DNA from: a virus
IMG/VR virus record: IMGVR_UViG_3300020401_000111
Span: 1 to 21,759 of that record
Length of the DNA stretch: 21,759 nucleotides
Direction: 5' to 3' (one strand)
The stretch's first letter is position 1. Every line of letters begins with the position of its first letter. This document shows, piece by piece, positions 9,289 through 21,166 of this stretch. The notes under the pieces are model-generated. The model ran no database searches, was not told the origin of the DNA, and saw only the letters and a program-made list of their open reading frames with translations. A program made the position numbers and the translations under genes.

Positions 9289-9804
9289 TTAATATGCTTC
9301 CCAGACGCGTCTTTTCTGCATCTCTTGAGCTCCAATAGCTAATGCGTCTACCATGTCATCATGCGAACCTAGTGGAAATGCAAGGAGCTCACGCTCTAGG
9401 TCCGGTAGCCATGGTGCTTCCGCTTTTAAAAGTACATCTCCGCTTTCCATCCTAGCTGATAATGGCAAAGCTTTGGTTATTTTATCTTTATCTGCTTTCA
9501 TTTCTTGTACACGATATCCCTCTCTTGAAAGCATTTGAGAAACAGTTTTAGAAAGACCAACATTTTCAATACAAACATGTGTCCAATTATATTTCTGATA
9601 CATAGATTGTATTTCAGGAAATACATCAGGTCCTTCAACCTTTACTCTTTTTACATCATTAACAAACAATGTTCCATCAGAATGTTTTGCAAAATCTACT
9701 ATTGCTGTGTAATCAGAACTAGTTGCTGTAGTTACAGCTATATCAGCTGCACCAAAATGTGTAAGTTCTAATGGGTCCCAAGTACCACCGCCACCAGACC
9801 ACAA
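9289..9804 (-). CDS. terminase large subunit, nuclease domain (downstream part of ochre-split gene)
   Basis: A 171-aa reading frame in the same frame as the ATPase part upstream, separated only by one TAA and five sense codons. It has the RNase H-like terminase nuclease motifs: Asp21 in 'GAADIAVTTATSSDYTAIV', Glu80 in 'HVCIENVG' and the terminal acidic cluster 'GSHDDMVDALA' (D149, D150, D153). This domain cuts concatemeric DNA at the start and end of packaging. The only local start for separate translation is a TTG at 9802-9804 with a poor ribosome site, so readthrough of the ochre codon is equally possible. If the stop is an assembly error or point mutation, the two parts form one ordinary 404-aa terminase. 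Confidence 0.88.
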   Translation of the reverse strand: MWSGGGGTWDPLELTHFGAADIAVTTATSSDYTAIVDFAKHSDGTLFVNDVKRVKVEGPDVFPEIQSMYQKYNWTHVCIENVGLSKTVSQMLSREGYRVQEMKADKDKITKALPLSARMESGDVLLKAEAPWLPDLERELLAFPLGSHDDMVDALAIGAQEMQKRRVWEAY

Positions 9805-9819
9805 ACCATTTTCTGTCTT

Positions 9820-9822
9820 TTA
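9820..9822 (-). other. single in-frame ochre codon inside terminase large subunit
   Basis: Minus-strand codons read TCT TAT TAT TAA AAG ACA GAA AAT GGT TTG TGG. Removing the TAA would give one continuous terminase (…PHWLSYY-x-KTENGLWSGGGG…). The frame is unchanged across the stop, so a single frameshift cannot explain it. The break falls in the linker between ATPase and nuclease domains. Confidence 0.9.
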
Positions 9823-10503
9823 ATAATAAGATAACCAATGTGGTTTGAATAAAGATTGTCCATCTTCAATAAACTCCGCAAGATACTCTTGTGTATAAAT
9901 TACAGAACCAACTTCTTTTTTTGCAACTTCAACTTCTTCAGGGTCAATTGCTGGATTATCTACAGTTGCAAATCTAAACGTTTGCCAGTTGTCATCATCT
10001 TCTGCCATCTTCCATAAATCATAAAACCAATTGTTCATTCCCATAGGAGTAGAGATAAATAAAGCTCCACCTTTTCTTTCAGTAAGTGTTGGTCTTAAAA
10101 CTTCTCTCCACACTTCTGGTTTAACAAATGCTGCTTCATCCATAACTAGAAAGTCAAGACCCTCACCTCTTAGCCTTTGTGGATTGTCTGCTGACTTAGC
10201 TGCTATAAAACCACCATTCTCGAAATGTACTTCCATATTTGCTATGGATACTTTTGGTCTTATCTCTTGAGGAAACGACATAGCCGCTGCTTCAATAGCA
10301 CGCCAGCCAACACGAGCAATAGAAAAAGTAGGAGCAACCCACCACGCTCTTTTACCTTCGAGAGCTGCTTGAATACAAAGTTGTACACCGAGTCTAGTCT
10401 TTCCAAATCTTCTTCCTGCACAAAGTACTTTCCATCTAGCTTCGGAATGTGCGACTTCTTCCTGTGCTGGATGTAGCAAGGGAAGTTTGGCAGAATATTT
10501 CAT
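9820..10503 (-). CDS. terminase large subunit, ATPase domain (upstream part of ochre-split gene)
   Basis: A 227-aa protein with a complete packaging ATPase: Walker A 'CAGRRFGKT' at 28-36, Walker B 'FLVMDEAA' at 118-125 with the catalytic Glu, and the coupling motif 'STPMG' at 151-155. 'LRGEGLDFLVMDEAAFVKPEVW' is the classic surrounding block. The domain drives DNA translocation through the portal. It ends at 'LFKPHWLSYY', the usual exit from the ATPase domain, where the TAA lies; the nuclease domain continues in frame. A GAAGGGGA sequence sits directly before the ATG, closer than usual, and the gene overlaps its upstream neighbour by 4 bases, so coupling to that gene is likely. Confidence 0.93.
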   Translation of the reverse strand: MKYSAKLPLLHPAQEEVAHSEARWKVLCAGRRFGKTRLGVQLCIQAALEGKRAWWVAPTFSIARVGWRAIEAAAMSFPQEIRPKVSIANMEVHFENGGFIAAKSADNPQRLRGEGLDFLVMDEAAFVKPEVWREVLRPTLTERKGGALFISTPMGMNNWFYDLWKMAEDDDNWQTFRFATVDNPAIDPEEVEVAKKEVGSVIYTQEYLAEFIEDGQSLFKPHWLSYY

Positions 10504-15018: not shown

Positions 15019-15207
15019 ATGTCAGACTTACTCTTAGTAGGTAGTGGTGGGGGAAAACTCCCACCTACTCCTAGAACAATGGTCGCTTCATCAGATGATG
15101 GAGAGTTTGAGGCCATAATGATGAACAACAATATGTTCCACGAAACGAGAGAGGACTTTGCCACTCCGTTTAGTGAGGACATTTTATATGAGAAAGGAGC
15201 CAACTAA
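15019..15207 (+). CDS. hypothetical 62-aa protein
   Basis: AGAAAGGAGTAAG before the ATG. A Gly/Pro-rich start ('LLLVGSGGGKLPPTPR') is followed by a polar acidic part. The glycine loop is not a Walker A motif (no GKT/S). Stop overlaps the next ATG (TAATG). Function unknown. Confidence 0.55.
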   Translation: MSDLLLVGSGGGKLPPTPRTMVASSDDGEFEAIMMNNNMFHETREDFATPFSEDILYEKGAN

Positions 15208-15452
15208 TGGCTATAGTAACCAAGTTCGTGGACACCATGAACGCAATAGAAAAAGAAATGGAAGAGTATCACGTCGACCTATTAGTGATGGACGAGGTGA
15301 AGGCTACCATTGATGCAAGAGGGGTAACAGATGAGGATGGTATCAAAAATATCATTAACGAAATCTGCATGTCTTTTGCAGGAGAGTTCGATAGAGGATA
15401 TATATTCAAACATCTTAAAGAAGATGAGAATGTAACTATCGACTCAGCTTAA
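15207..15452 (+). CDS. hypothetical 81-aa acidic protein
   Basis: TAATG-coupled to the preceding gene, with AGAAAGGAGCC upstream. Mostly helical and acidic ('MNAIEKEMEEYHVDLLVMDEVKATI'), no metal sites or membrane spans. A strong stem-loop follows 7 bases after the stop, so this is the last gene of its cluster. Confidence 0.55.
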   Translation: MAIVTKFVDTMNAIEKEMEEYHVDLLVMDEVKATIDARGVTDEDGIKNIINEICMSFAGEFDRGYIFKHLKEDENVTIDSA

Positions 15453-15459
15453 CAGCTCG

Positions 15460-15501
15460 GAGCCCATTACGGTGGGCTCTAGGGTGTTAGGAAAGTCCTA
15501 A
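15460..15501 (+). terminator. two stem-loops after the second mini-gene cluster
   Basis: 15460-15479: GAGCCCA-TTACGG-TGGGCTC, 7 perfect pairs. 15487-15501: TTAGGA-AAG-TCCTAA, 6 perfect pairs. No U-run follows the first. They separate the 81-aa gene from the 59-aa gene and could be a terminator followed by a leader element. Confidence 0.55.
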
Positions 15502-15523
15502 TACTGTATAACAAGGAGGCAAT

Positions 15524-15703
15524 ATGTCTGCAACATTGGTTATTCATCCTGCTACTAAAGCAGAGATGGATGACATGATGGACTCTATGAAACTAGAGTC
15601 TGAAAGAAATAAAGAAAGATTACTACAACTAATCTGGCTACCAGAAGTAGTTGAGGTATATCTTCAAGAAAGAAAAATAAATGGTAACCTTCCAGCTGCT
15701 TAG
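15524..15703 (+). CDS. hypothetical 59-aa protein
   Basis: An ideal AAGGAGGC ribosome site 6 bases before ATG 15524-15526. The product has a Met/Asp-rich helix ('AEMDDMMDSMKLESERNKERL') and an 'LIWLPEVVEVYLQERKI' segment. It is the last gene before the amidoligase cassette, 71 bases upstream. Function unknown. Confidence 0.55.
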   Translation: MSATLVIHPATKAEMDDMMDSMKLESERNKERLLQLIWLPEVVEVYLQERKINGNLPAA

Positions 15704-15774: not shown

Positions 15775-17739
15775 ATGAAACTATATCCTGCTAGCGATAG
15801 CAGATATTCAAATAGAGAGATATGGCATCCACGATTCGACACCATCTTCAGAGATGAAACAGATGAAACGATGTACTATCTTGAAATTCCAGTTATGTAT
15901 TGGAGTGACATACTCAGTGGTGATTATGCCGATTGGGATGAAATTACAGACGAGCTGGAAAATCTATCTTATCCAAGAGATACACTAGCTGAAGACTATG
16001 CAGAAGAGAATGCTATAAACTTCAGAAGTAGTGTATTTGGTAAGATAAACAGTTATGTCAAGAGTAGTATTCTTTGGCATATGCAAGACCAACTACAGAA
16101 CAATACCAATCAAGCTATGGTGTTGGGTGTATCAGTTTGGACTGAGGTTACAGATATTACTAATGCAGTAAGATACAGACTAAGCAGTCCTCACTACTGG
16201 GGTAGACAACCACACATACTATCTAATGATAGTGATGGTAATATCCGACAGATATCAACCAACTTAGCACTAGCTAAAGATACTGGTAGGTTCGAGTACA
16301 AACGTTGGTTGGAAACACAAAGACCATACACACAATGTAAACTATGTGGTCTGTTCAACAAGACTAGAACAGATATGGTTCCTGTCTATCATCAACAAAG
16401 AAGATGGCAGAATCGTAAGAACGTATGTATCAAGTGTGTGTGTTCATTAGTAAAAGGCGATAACCTCGGTGATGTTGGATATGATGGGGAAAATCAATTG
16501 ATTATCTCTGACAATGATACAACATACAGTCATCTTGACTGTCACAACAAAGACTATCTTGTTACGATAACAGGTGAGTATGGTAGAGCCTTTAGAAAGA
16601 TTGCTGAGATAGAAGATGAATGGCATGTCGATATACTCAATGAAATTAAGCTTGTTGAGACAATTGATATACCTACATGGGACTATTCATTTGATACAAG
16701 CATACATGCTTGGAACTGGAGATTCCCAATCTTCTTGACTACTGCAAGACCTTATGGTGACAGTGGTAGTCATTTCTTTGAGAGTCATTCTCTAGGATAC
16801 GATTGGCAAGACCCAGATTGGTATGCAAACACAGGACCATACTTTGGTGCTGAGTTCGAATGCTTTGTCAGAAATGACAGACAAGACTTGCGTGCTAACA
16901 ATGAGGTCAAGAAAACAGCAATCAAGATGTTCCATCCTACCGACTATCCAACTGCATATACACAAGATGCTGAGCATCAATTGATATATGCTAAGGAAGA
17001 CGGTAGCTTAAGTGATGGCGATGGTGTTGAGTTTGTGTCTCAACCACTTAGCTATGACTACTGGATGAACCATGTACCTGAAAGATTCTGGGACTATTTC
17101 AGAAACAACTTCAGAGCAAGGAACTCATCACAGTGTGGTATACACGTACACATAGGATGGGAATCTATGGATGTAGTACAGAGATATATATTCCTGTACT
17201 TCTTGAACAGAATGAACCTAAGCAGTTCAGAACTGTTACAGCGTGTTGCTGGTAGAGGTAGTACATACTACTCAGTATGGAACTCACTTGTCTATCAAGG
17301 CTCAAGAGACCAAGTGTTTCAAGTAGCCCTTGAGAAGACACAGACAGGTGACAATCCTAAGTACAACTCTATCAACACAAGACATGCAGACACAATAGAG
17401 TTGAGATACTTTCAAGGTAACACTGGAGAGAACTCAATCAAAGGTATATTCCAATTCATCAATGGACTCTATCGCATCTCAGATGAGTTAGCTAATCCAC
17501 ACAGGGATTGGGATTATACAGAAGAAGAGCAACCAGAAGAACTGAAGTTCCTTCTAGAAGGAATCAAAGAACAGACGGACTCTACCTTCTTAAGACAATT
17601 GATGAACACTGAGAGACTAACTGCAGATGATATGAAATACTTTGTCAACAGAGTTGGTATAGATTGGATTCGTACCAAACTCAATGATGAAGAGTATGGA
17701 TATATGGCAGACAGGTATCTAAATGTTCCATCAATATAA
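15775..17739 (+). CDS. amidoligase A (GCS/GS-fold, Amidoligase_2-like) with N-terminal zinc ribbon
   Basis: A 654-aa protein. Residues 1-180 are unrecognised. C188-x2-C191 and C218-x2-C221 form a zinc-ribbon-like knuckle. From about 345 onwards the amidoligase pattern appears: 'FGAEFEC' at 357-363 (acidic metal/ATP residues), 'KEDGSLSDGDGVEFVSQPL' at 407-425, 'CGIHVHIG' at 454-461 and 'IELRYFQG' at 541-548. This is the motif order of glutamate-cysteine-ligase-like amidoligases, which join a carboxylate to an amine using ATP. Family members predicted by comparative genomics often pair with amidotransferases, as here. The substrate is unknown. AGGAAGGAAAAAT precedes the ATG. The family call is good; the N-terminal half could be substrate-binding. 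Confidence 0.83.
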   Translation: MKLYPASDSRYSNREIWHPRFDTIFRDETDETMYYLEIPVMYWSDILSGDYADWDEITDELENLSYPRDTLAEDYAEENAINFRSSVFGKINSYVKSSILWHMQDQLQNNTNQAMVLGVSVWTEVTDITNAVRYRLSSPHYWGRQPHILSNDSDGNIRQISTNLALAKDTGRFEYKRWLETQRPYTQCKLCGLFNKTRTDMVPVYHQQRRWQNRKNVCIKCVCSLVKGDNLGDVGYDGENQLIISDNDTTYSHLDCHNKDYLVTITGEYGRAFRKIAEIEDEWHVDILNEIKLVETIDIPTWDYSFDTSIHAWNWRFPIFLTTARPYGDSGSHFFESHSLGYDWQDPDWYANTGPYFGAEFECFVRNDRQDLRANNEVKKTAIKMFHPTDYPTAYTQDAEHQLIYAKEDGSLSDGDGVEFVSQPLSYDYWMNHVPERFWDYFRNNFRARNSSQCGIHVHIGWESMDVVQRYIFLYFLNRMNLSSSELLQRVAGRGSTYYSVWNSLVYQGSRDQVFQVALEKTQTGDNPKYNSINTRHADTIELRYFQGNTGENSIKGIFQFINGLYRISDELANPHRDWDYTEEEQPEELKFLLEGIKEQTDSTFLRQLMNTERLTADDMKYFVNRVGIDWIRTKLNDEEYGYMADRYLNVPSI

Positions 17740-17766
17740 AGAAACAATAGAAAGAAAGGAGATTAC

Positions 17767-18750
17767 ATGTGTGTAATCGCTAGCCTCCCAAGAGGCAAAA
17801 ACATATCCAACAAGAACCTCGACCAAATGTGGAAGAGAAACCCAGATGGTGGTGGTATTGCTTGGATACAAGATGGTAAGATTCAAGTCTACAAGACTAT
17901 GAAACTCAAGGACTTCAAGCAGAAGTTCAAAGAGGTTACCAGTAAGTATGGTGATTCAGACATACTAGTTCATATGAGGATAGCAACTCATGGTTCAGTT
18001 TGTCTTGATAACAATCATCCATTCCATATCGATACGCAGACTGTGTTTGCTCACAATGGCATTATGCCTAATGAGTTTCACCCACCTGCTAAATCAGACT
18101 TGTCTGATACAAGATACTTCAACAAAGTATTCTTGCAGAACATGAAGCCAATAGCATTGGACGACGAACTGTTCCGTACTGCTATCGGTGACATTATCGG
18201 TATGGGTAACAAGCTAGTTATCTTGTCAGCTAACAAGAAGCTCAAGCAAGATTCATATATCATCAATGAGCATATGGGTCAATGGGTCAAGGGCGTATGG
18301 TATTCCAATACAGCTCACATCCCAAGCAAGGGTATCAAGTATGACAAGACAGGTGCAACAATTGGCAACCATCAACAAGGTACGATATGGAACTCATTTG
18401 ATGGGACATTCGAACATGTTGATGACTCATGCGAGATTGAGATAGCGCCAGATGTTGACAGTTCTTGGTTTGACGAAGTAGAAGTCAATGACGAGTACTG
18501 GTGGTGTGAGACTATACCAGAGCAGGAGCTAGAGAAGGAATCAGTGCAAGAAGAGATTGCACAATTCTTGGAAGCTGCTGAAGGTAAGTACTTGTATCAA
18601 TATGAAACCTTTGATGATTGTATGGCAGACTTTGCAATACATTATGATGGTGGTTTCAGATGTTGTGAATGTGAACTACCAGTCAAGGCTGAAGCTGGAA
18701 AGGTCGTAAGAGATTGTGACGTGGAATGTTCAGCTAGGGTGTTCAGCTAA
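17767..18750 (+). CDS. class II glutamine amidotransferase (Ntn-hydrolase)
   Basis: A 327-aa protein whose second residue is Cys ('MCVIASLPRG'), the nucleophile exposed after Met removal. Other glutaminase residues are present: 'NPDGGG' at 25-30, Arg71 in 'HMRIATHG' (69-76), 'NNHPF' at 82-86, the oxyanion 'HNG' at 96-98, and Asp114 in 'LSDTRYF'. The domain frees ammonia from glutamine. After about residue 215 there is an acidic region with no synthetase domain, so the acceptor enzyme must be another protein, most likely the flanking amidoligases. The C-terminus has five Cys (299, 300, 302, 317, 321), possibly a metal site. AGAAAGGAG lies before the ATG; the stop overlaps the next start by one base. 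Confidence 0.9.
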   Translation: MCVIASLPRGKNISNKNLDQMWKRNPDGGGIAWIQDGKIQVYKTMKLKDFKQKFKEVTSKYGDSDILVHMRIATHGSVCLDNNHPFHIDTQTVFAHNGIMPNEFHPPAKSDLSDTRYFNKVFLQNMKPIALDDELFRTAIGDIIGMGNKLVILSANKKLKQDSYIINEHMGQWVKGVWYSNTAHIPSKGIKYDKTGATIGNHQQGTIWNSFDGTFEHVDDSCEIEIAPDVDSSWFDEVEVNDEYWWCETIPEQELEKESVQEEIAQFLEAAEGKYLYQYETFDDCMADFAIHYDGGFRCCECELPVKAEAGKVVRDCDVECSARVFS

Positions 18751-19127
18751 TGGGAATACCTGACTGGAACAAAACAGAACAAACAGTAACTGTTGAGAAT
18801 ACAGCAACTTATGTAGCTGAATTTGATGTTGATTACAGTATGAGCAGTGAAGTTCGTATTGATACAATGCATTCAGGTAGTGCAAGTTACAGTGAACGTG
18901 GTATTACTAGATACACAATACAAGATATTGTTGATGATGGTATAAATCAAGGTCACTGGGAACAGGATGAAATCGATAGAGGTAACATTCCTACTCTTGA
19001 TGAAATCACTGAGTATGCAAGGGAGATGCATTACAACATCGGAGAAATCGACGATTATGATGATATCGAGTATGACAATCATGACCAATATGATTGGGAG
19101 ATATCAGATATAAGTATAAGAAACTAA
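18750..19127 (+). CDS. acidic cassette protein 1
   Basis: 125 aa, started by a TAATG overlap with the amidotransferase gene. It begins 'MGIPDWN', has a beta-like region ('YVAEFDVDYSMSSEVRIDT') and ends in an Asp/Tyr/Glu-rich stretch ('EIDDYDDIEYDNHDQYDWE'). The second cassette protein (20195) begins 'MTIPQWN' and also carries a V-x-IDT segment and a similar Asp/Tyr/Trp tail, so the two are probably related by duplication. Each follows its enzyme with coupled translation, suggesting a dedicated partner or substrate. No known family. Confidence 0.7.
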   Translation: MGIPDWNKTEQTVTVENTATYVAEFDVDYSMSSEVRIDTMHSGSASYSERGITRYTIQDIVDDGINQGHWEQDEIDRGNIPTLDEITEYAREMHYNIGEIDDYDDIEYDNHDQYDWEISDISIRN

Positions 19128-19139
19128 CAAGGAGGAAAT

Positions 19140-20198
19140 ATGACGGAAGTCAATTTCGAATCGGAGGGACGCGCAAGGTCTCTCCGAGAAGCAATACATT
19201 ATAGTATGGACACACAAGTGAACAGCTATAGTACAAGACCAGCATATTACTTCTTCTCACCAGAGAAGATGATAAAGAGTTGGACAAGAGCTACTAAGGT
19301 AGAATCTAACTTCATAGATAACTATGGGATACCAATGGGTATGGAACTAGAGGTAGAACGTAGAAACTATGTTGGACGACAAGATGATGCAGACAACATT
19401 AGACACATCAACAAAGATGCGATGTGGCAATACTACATCAAACGCTTTGATGAGTATACGAATGATGTCACTGCTGATGTTGTTGATACACCAGTACAGT
19501 TCTTCATAGCTAAGGAAGATGGTTCACTTAACAATGGTGTTGAGTTTGTATCTCAACCTATGACATTGGGTATGTGGAGGTCGATACCTTTGAAGTTCGA
19601 AGACATTACAGGTGATTATGCTGCTTACCATAGACGTACTACTGGTTTGCACATACACGTACCTAAGGGTGCATTCGAAGATAGTCATCTACACAGATGG
19701 TTACATTTGATGAAAGCATTGGGTAGTACTCCTGTAAATCACAGAAGACTAACTAATGTCTTGTCACTTGTTGGTCAGAGACAGTTTAACAACTGGGCAA
19801 GGTTCGAAATGCCAGAGTTCAGAAATGTTAAATCATCTCTTGCACAAGTAGCTATTGATAGAATCAATCACGATGGTGGAAGGTACAAGTTCTTGAACTT
19901 TCAACCTAGTGCAACTATTGAGTTGAGATTCTTCAAGGCTAACATGCAGACACATAGGATACTTAAGAACTTAGAGTTTGTTGACGCAACCTATGAGTTC
20001 ACTAAGGGCATGACTGATATGACACAATGTAATATCAACATGTTCACTTGGTATCTAAGAAACCATTCAACCAAGTATCAAAACTTACTTGAATATCTTG
20101 ACGCACATAGTGACAAGATTGATTGGGACTACAAATATGACCTTGACTCTTTTGAGTTGGAGGCACAAGAAAATATGAGGGAAGGAGAGTTGGTATGA
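19140..20198 (+). CDS. amidoligase B (GCS/GS-fold, Amidoligase_2-like)
   Basis: A 352-aa paralogue of the catalytic half of amidoligase A. It has 'MGMELEVER' at 66-74, 'KEDGSLNNGVEFVSQP' at 125-140, 'GLHIHV' at 169-174 and 'IELRFFK' at 260-266. The 'AKEDGSL…VEFVSQP' block is almost the same in both proteins, so they probably arose by duplication and diverged. It lacks the zinc-ribbon N-terminal region. Predicted to form amide bonds with ATP; substrate unknown. An AAGGAGGAAAT ribosome site precedes the ATG. It overlaps the next gene by 4 bases (ATGA). Confidence 0.83.
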   Translation: MTEVNFESEGRARSLREAIHYSMDTQVNSYSTRPAYYFFSPEKMIKSWTRATKVESNFIDNYGIPMGMELEVERRNYVGRQDDADNIRHINKDAMWQYYIKRFDEYTNDVTADVVDTPVQFFIAKEDGSLNNGVEFVSQPMTLGMWRSIPLKFEDITGDYAAYHRRTTGLHIHVPKGAFEDSHLHRWLHLMKALGSTPVNHRRLTNVLSLVGQRQFNNWARFEMPEFRNVKSSLAQVAIDRINHDGGRYKFLNFQPSATIELRFFKANMQTHRILKNLEFVDATYEFTKGMTDMTQCNINMFTWYLRNHSTKYQNLLEYLDAHSDKIDWDYKYDLDSFELEAQENMREGELV

Positions 20199-20590
20199 CT
20201 ATACCACAATGGAATCTAGCAGAAGGAACAACTACTAGTATAAGCAACTTAAGAAACGCAGGTAACTGGGATGACATGGGTGTCTACTTTGATATATCAC
20301 GTACTGAAGTAAGACATGCTTATCACAGCACAAGTGCTCGTGTTTCTATTGATACACTAGTAGAACTTAACTTACTACCAGAGTCAGCATTCACTATTGA
20401 AGAAGATTCAATGGGTGGTACAAATGTTGAGTTCATAGGTGATAGCTCAGATATGAATCGTGCTATTCAAGAGTATGTTGACAATCATATGGATGGTGAT
20501 GATGAGTTCATGTATTCAGAAGCACACGATGAAGACCATGCCGAATGGTACGGTCCAGCTAGTTATGACGATTACTTTGATTGGGAATAG
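20195..20590 (+). CDS. acidic cassette protein 2
   Basis: 131 aa, ATGA-coupled to amidoligase B, with GGGAAGGAGAG upstream. It starts 'MTIPQWN', contains 'ARVSIDTLVELN' (compare 'EVRIDT' in protein 1) and ends in a very acidic, aromatic tail ('GPASYDDYFDWE'). The shared start and tail with cassette protein 1 support a common origin. Could be a carrier, adaptor or modification target of the amidoligase. No known family. Confidence 0.7.
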   Translation: MTIPQWNLAEGTTTSISNLRNAGNWDDMGVYFDISRTEVRHAYHSTSARVSIDTLVELNLLPESAFTIEEDSMGGTNVEFIGDSSDMNRAIQEYVDNHMDGDDEFMYSEAHDEDHAEWYGPASYDDYFDWE

Positions 20591-20737: not shown

Positions 20738-20914
20738 ATAGTACCTATTACATAAGGTAATTATTTAGTGAGCCAATAGGAGTAGTCTATCCTAGGATAT
20801 TTCATTAGGAAAATGGCCGACCTCTCCCCCTCGTGTCCCTCAACACATAGGGAAATTAGTGAGCCAATACCAGAGGTCTATCATTTTTCTCAGGCATCTG
20901 GCATCTAACTTAAA

Positions 20915-21035
20915 ACACAAAGTCCAATGTTTATAGGGTTTGTGTCTTGTAAGTAAGTTTCTCTTCCACGCTGTCTGGGCCAACGCCTTCTTGTTCACGA
21001 CACATACCTCAATGTTTATGGGCTTGTGTGTCGTG
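20915..21035 (+). ncRNA. pair of hairpins with conserved loop and changed stems
   Basis: Hairpin 1: ACACAAA…TTTGTGT around the loop CAATGTTTATAGG. Hairpin 2: CACGACACA (20996-21004)…TGTGTCGTG (21027-21035) around CAATGTTTATGGG. The loop sequence CAATGTTTATRGG is kept while stem bases change but still pair, which is the mark of a structure under selection. Orientation is uncertain; the plus strand is assumed from neighbouring genes. Confidence 0.4.
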
Positions 21036-21166
21036 GCAGCGAAGCAGCGCAGCTCGCTGGGCCGTCTGGTTTCACAACACATTGGGACTTAATAAATTTA
21101 TTAATTCTTCTGTAACCTTTTCTGGTTTCTGAGTGTCTAAGTAAGGCAAGCAGAGGAAGGATTGTA

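Follow-up and report, generated by a model that had tools for sequence, protein, structure and literature searches.

A phage cassette pairing two amidoligases with a single putative class II glutaminase and small acidic proteins

What would a phage do with two amide-forming ligases, one glutamine amidotransferase (GAT) and a pair of small acidic proteins encoded in a single run of genes? The question is raised by an IMG/VR virus record of 21,759 bp in which TerL is present; we refer to the whole of this stretch as the window. Its cassette consists of five ORFs, all on the + strand in the order A-GAT-P1-B-P2, with gaps of at most 27 nt or overlapping ends. The cassette and its features are as follows.

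15775..17739, + strand: amidoligase A, 654 aa, with an N-terminal region, a zinc-ribbon-like 4-Cys motif and a C-terminal GS/GCS-fold core (predicted).
16336..16437, + strand: CxxC...CxxC motif of A (C188, C191, C218, C221), zinc-ribbon-like.
16822..17610, + strand: GS-like catalytic core of A (G358xE360xE362, D409GS411, E419, G455xH457xH459, R494, N534, E542xR544xF546).
17767..18750, + strand: GAT, a stand-alone class II glutaminase domain with a C-terminal tail, 327 aa.
18661..18729, + strand: C-terminal 4-Cys motif of GAT (C299, C302, C317, C321), without variation among 10 GATs from the two-ligase clade described below.
18750..19127, + strand: P1, 125 aa, acidic (pI 4.05), lysine-poor, with an N-terminal IPxWN motif.
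19140..20198, + strand: amidoligase B, 352 aa, core only (G67xE69xE71, D127GS129, G169xH171xH173, E261xR263xF265).
20195..20590, + strand: P2, 131 aa, acidic (pI 4.05), lysine-free, with an IPxWN motif.

The first-pass annotation had described five coupled genes on one strand, and the junctions agree with that description. Read from the sequence, A and GAT are separated by 27 nt containing an AAAGGAG-like ribosome-binding site, GAT and P1 have 1 nt in common, 12 nt with AAGGAGG lie between P1 and B, and the start of P2 overlaps the stop of B in a 4-nt overlap; such spacing looks as it does in one translationally coupled operon. Against the nearest relative, dN/dS is 0.13-0.39 across all five genes, and values below 0.4 in five of five indicate purifying selection on every one. 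Promoter-like sites are rarer in the window than in shuffled sequence (11 versus 28.7), so we claim no promoter, and neither Rfam families nor tRNAs were found within the window.

A WhiB gene on the contig (PF02467, E=1.2e-18) indicates an actinobacterial host, and the phage, which is uncultured, probably infects actinobacteria. TerL and the portal-like and capsid-like ORFs lie on the - strand; the cassette region is transcribed in the opposite direction and is early-looking. Two small ORFs upstream of A (81 and 59 aa, window 15207-15703) look similar on inspection to ORFs that precede A in contigs L004 and L034, and may be early-region genes in common. At 9289-10503 (- strand) the terminase large subunit is broken into two ORFs by one in-frame stop, which could be a true nonsense allele, a suppressed codon or a sequencing error; the protein is intact (408 aa) in the close relative contig L171.

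Both ligases carry the amidoligase motifs first noticed in them, with GxExE, DGS, GxHxH and ExRxF present in A and in B. Against Amidoligase_2 (PF12224, Pfam cut-off 22) A scores 29.8 bits and B 19.2 bits, the latter under the cut-off; the orthologue of B in contig L003 passes it at 23.6 bits, and B also matches PHROG 22302 and 16683. Ten motif residues of the A core are invariant across 49 homologues, each catalytic motif residue of B is common to A and to 13 to 51 relatives, and when A and B are aligned with 13 diverse homologues GxExE, DGS, E, P, GxHxH, Y, N, T and ExRxF are all kept. By sequence, neither ligase has a meaningful match in the PDB. An AlphaFold model of A built from a 49-row alignment has a core with pLDDT of about 92, residues 1-158 being mostly below 50. 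The modelled core matches solved structures at Z 9.6-10.6 (GS type III, 10.6; Dop, 10.2; YbdK/GCS2, 10.2; plant GCL, 9.8) and also GmaS, with a Foldseek E of 1e-4. In the model, then, the A core folds as a glutamine synthetase/GCS2/Dop-type ligase, and the GS/GCS fold expected from the motifs was recovered on structural comparison.

The signature of class II glutaminases is likewise in place in GAT: Met1-Cys2, Arg71, His96-Asn97-Gly98 and Asp114 are invariant and there is no synthetase domain, as the original reading of a stand-alone protein with the class II residues had it. GAT scores 29.1 bits against GATase_4 (PF13230), over the cut-off of 23. Among solved structures the profile places it nearest to the glutaminase domain of GlmS (1xff, E 5e-7), and it aligns best with the glutaminase domains of GlmS and PurF, being nearer in sequence to these than to EgtC, an NCBIfam family that it matches weakly. 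These comparisons support GAT as a competent class II glutaminase.

The association of GAT with a ligase extends well beyond the window. An amidoligase ORF is present in 78 of the 80 IMG/VR loci best matching GAT, and the remaining two start near a contig edge. In the wider survey, which takes in near-identical contigs and cellular contigs and uses GlmS-length proteins (about 610 aa, in L131-L136 and L138) as outgroup, 112 of 115 GAT ORFs have an amidoligase in the locus; ligase and GAT lie within 150 bp of each other in 101 and overlap in 42, the median gap being 1 bp. Pairing is close to obligatory, which marks GAT as a dedicated amidoligase partner. A locus in an Atopobiaceae MAG (L128) that looks like a ligase-GAT fusion was dismissed as evidence, as its GAT would be without the N-terminal Cys and a near-identical Collinsella locus (L123) has separate genes, making a frameshift in L128 likelier than a fusion. 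Two loci, L073 and L118 (a Nocardia contig), have a tandem amidoligase-GAT-amidoligase-GAT arrangement in which the whole pair is duplicated, unlike the single GAT of the window.

The 15 GATs nearest that of the window form one clade (SH-aLRT 85) drawn from several divergent phage lineages: the window with L003; L004-L005; L008; L030; L029-L031; L034/L036/L037/L038; L032/L033/L035; and L039/L040. Identity to the window runs from 96% down to 37% for GAT and from 90% down to 24% for A. Two amidoligases are encoded on 14 of the 15 clade contigs, and the other contig (L031) ends inside GAT. Together with the 112 of 115 GATs accompanied by a ligase, this bears out the expectation that the ligase-GAT-ligase genes travel together. 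Gene order is either A-GAT-[P]-B or GAT-A-B, the trio being kept through the change, and all four cysteines of the N-terminal motif are found in 15 of 15 A proteins of the clade. In the ligase tree A, B and a single-ligase sister group (L153-L161, L166) make up one supported set (98), which fits a single duplication in the lineage, with long branches blurring the order of splits; A and B are probably paralogues from one ancestral duplication. Part of the synteny of the two-ligase phages may come from common descent. A tblastn search of 50,697 annotated phage records with window A, window B or the A of L032 found, at that sensitivity, no two-ligase cassette.

In the window lineage, A and B both keep all motif residues examined. 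The A proteins of L034, L036, L037 and L038 no longer have several of the conserved residues (H459 has become N and T540 has become R) beside an intact B, so the two ligase copies need not both be catalytic everywhere; an A in which HxH has become HxN and T has become R (2891-4888 in L034) is possibly a regulatory pseudoenzyme. At every locus of the GAT-A-B type (L032, 2530-4957; also L035, L039 and L040) four genes of unknown family, of about 335, 190, 90 and 130 aa, precede the trio.

A phage module of Amidoligase_2 and a class II GAT was predicted by Iyer et al. 2009, according to the passage citing that work in PMC10580990, and the pair has already been described in phages (PMC10580990, PMC3890496), known cases being mycobacteriophage Marvin gp105-gp106, OM43 phages MEP401/402 and LUZ24-like phages. 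The Marvin and OM43 modules, like the window, set a GS/GCS-fold amidoligase next to a stand-alone class II GAT, and the catalytic residues are intact. They have one amidoligase, however, whereas the window clade has two probable paralogues with one GAT between them. Other features that set the clade apart from those modules are the P proteins, the large size of A and the 4-Cys motifs in the N-terminal part of A and in the GAT tail. LUZ24-like (PMC3890496) and StenR_269-type cassettes resemble the window in that a GAT accompanies more than one amide-forming ligase, and they carry GGCT; a GGCT/GGACT gene is absent on the window contig, itself possibly a fragment. The ligases of UFV-P2 belong to different families (COOH-NH2_lig, Amidoligase_2 and ATP-grasp), whereas those of the window both appear to be Amidoligase_2 paralogues; StenR_269 has Amidoligase_2 and ATP-grasp genes per Pfam, in contrast to the window cassette, which has no ATP-grasp. 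The peptidoglycan amidotransferase MurT/GatD likewise consists of a glutaminase and a ligase as separate subunits encoded together (PMC6085368, PMC3267633), but its Mur-ligase fold and class I GAT make these unrelated proteins and the analogy one of logic only. What appears to be new here is the conserved paralogous ligase pair with one GAT in common and lysine-poor P partners. A reading as a defence system was set aside, there being no real PADLOC match. Phage amidoligase-GAT pairs are common, and the literature searched yielded neither an experimental substrate of phage amidoligases nor a biochemical test of the pair; the functions suggested in print (cell wall, superinfection, nitrogen metabolism) have the status of proposals (PMC10580990, PMC10945688).

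The reading we prefer, with somewhat better than even confidence, is that of a phage-borne module of duplicated amidoligase and class II GAT, fed by glutamine, which would act on a target of the host or of the phage by forming amide or gamma-glutamyl bonds. Formation of an acyl phosphate and an amide bond by the ligases, and cleavage of the glutamine amide by class II GATs, are established chemistry of these families. On the evidence of fold and residues, A and B are expected to carry out the former reactions and GAT the latter. GAT would cleave glutamine, or a gamma-glutamyl amide, by means of its N-terminal Cys, and A and B would use ATP to activate a carboxylate, which would then be coupled to an amine or to the ammonia set free. 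The near-zero gene spacing and dedicated pairing favor a complex with transfer of ammonia (or glutamyl), and A, B and the single GAT probably sit in one complex, with P proteins as putative accessory partners, either specificity factor or acceptor. Complex formation, reaction direction and target are the parts of this scheme that we infer. Its likeliest outcome would be that a host molecule is amidated or receives a gamma-glutamyl/peptide modification, or that a small gamma-glutamyl metabolite is made during infection. By analogy, envelope peptidoglycan is the leading guess for the target, in which case the module would give the phage a route to altering the host wall.

A different use of the same chemistry is possible, if rather unlikely: A and B would add gamma-glutamyl to amines as a handle, and GAT would strip it from the finished product. 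EgtA and PuuA add gamma-glutamyl groups and EgtC and Dug3 remove them, and the placement of GAT in GATase_4 with its weak EgtC match suits such a role, as does the fold of A, which resembles those of GCS2 and GmaS in addition to that of GS. Genes of the GGACT gamma-glutamyl cyclotransferase family, which acts on gamma-glutamyl compounds, also occur near some cassettes (PF06094 E 4e-18 in L034; pattern-level matches in L036 and L027), roughly 1 kb away and on the opposite strand; their presence, like that of GGCT around the related phage modules, counts for our preferred reading too. GAT is clearly nearer to the GlmS/PurF glutaminase domains than to EgtC, however, and the median linkage of 1 bp suggests stoichiometric partners, a linkage that channelling explains at least equally well.

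The acidic proteins may bear on what our preferred module might act upon. P1 and P2 have 22-25% Asp+Glu and a pI of about 4.05, and profile comparison argues that they are related proteins, as had been supposed from the start: by hhalign P2 and the P of L029 match a pooled P1-type profile at E 8e-8 and 3e-6, respectively, while a narrower P1-only profile aligns with P2 over 18 columns only. In the family alignment an N-terminal [IV]PxWN, which is PxW in L029, is accompanied by a central segment resembling a beta-hairpin and by a tail that is acidic. Conservation is at the N-terminal end; the C-termini vary between lineages, and none ends GGE or GGQ. There is one copy in L008 and L029, two in the window, L003 and L030, and three in L004; none could be detected in L032/L039 or L034/L037, and about half of the two-ligase lineages have no detectable P. 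With zero to three per locus, the earlier idea of one acidic protein per ligase does not hold as a rule. In the loci searched, P was found solely beside ligase genes.

Lysine is scarce throughout the family (11 Lys and 63 Arg in 1402 residues). K/(K+R) is 0.15 against 0.56 for the other window genes, with a nominal p of 2e-13 that ignores relatedness; because of this, and because the pattern was noticed after the fact, we take it as a lead and not as proof. Between the window and L003, dS is 1.69 in P1 versus 0.16-0.22 in its four neighbor genes, and DNA identity falls sharply at the borders of P1 (window 18750-19127, L003 6984-7370) in cassettes otherwise about 95% identical. This pattern points to exchange of the whole allele rather than fast point mutation, and by this comparison P appears to be a rapidly exchanged protein. 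The model of P1 (mean pLDDT 64) is partly folded, with a beta-beta-alpha-alpha-beta core. Neither BFVD (best E 0.085) nor the PDB chains (best Z 4.2) offered it a convincing structural counterpart; P has nothing significant in Pfam, PHROGs or PADLOC, and tblastn with P1 and P2 in the 50,697 phage records gave no match. P showed no kinship with the N-terminal region of A (hhalign E 0.37), and hhalign of P with the 195-200-aa linker protein of L034-type loci was not significant.

Small, acidic, lysine-depleted proteins coupled to ligase genes recall Pup, and Dop and PafA, which combine a GS/GCS-like fold with a small acidic co-encoded protein as the window does, are among the fold matches of A. 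P1 and P2 might on these grounds serve as a tag, carrier or acceptor, with A and B ligating or amidating it and GAT deamidating or regenerating it. We think this improbable: P, unlike Pup, has no conserved C-terminal Glu/Gln (the Pup-type Gly-Gly-Glu/Gln ending is missing), carries its conserved motif at the N-terminus, is predicted to be partly folded, and goes undetected in about half of the two-ligase lineages. That P1 and P2 should be a new type of carrier or tag in a phage protein-modification system unrelated to Pup, charged or recycled by GAT, is similarly a long shot. Beside related families of ligases, Iyer et al. 2008 saw no small ORFs of the Pup kind (PMC2588565), which makes the P genes of interest even with no conserved C-terminus. 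Auxiliary nitrogen or amino-acid metabolism, in which the module would enlarge the pools of glutamine, glutamate or glutathione-like compounds, a role put forward for a comparable gene set in Phage-ZRK32 (PMC10945688), is likewise improbable, given that A and B have no close similarity to glutamine synthetase or GCS and no meaningful PDB sequence match, and that two divergent ligases and a P family are unnecessary for it.

Returning to the glutamine-fed amidation module, its two putatively paralogous ligases, one glutaminase and exchanged acidic protein make a compact candidate set for co-expression and product finding, and if P is the acceptor the result would be a new protein-modification system. 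Lastly, on the 3' side of the cassette (window 20765-21100) there are short direct repeats (TTAGTGAGCCAATA... and ...TCAATGTTTATAGGG...) within a mostly non-coding stretch, and in L008 similar sequence comes after B.
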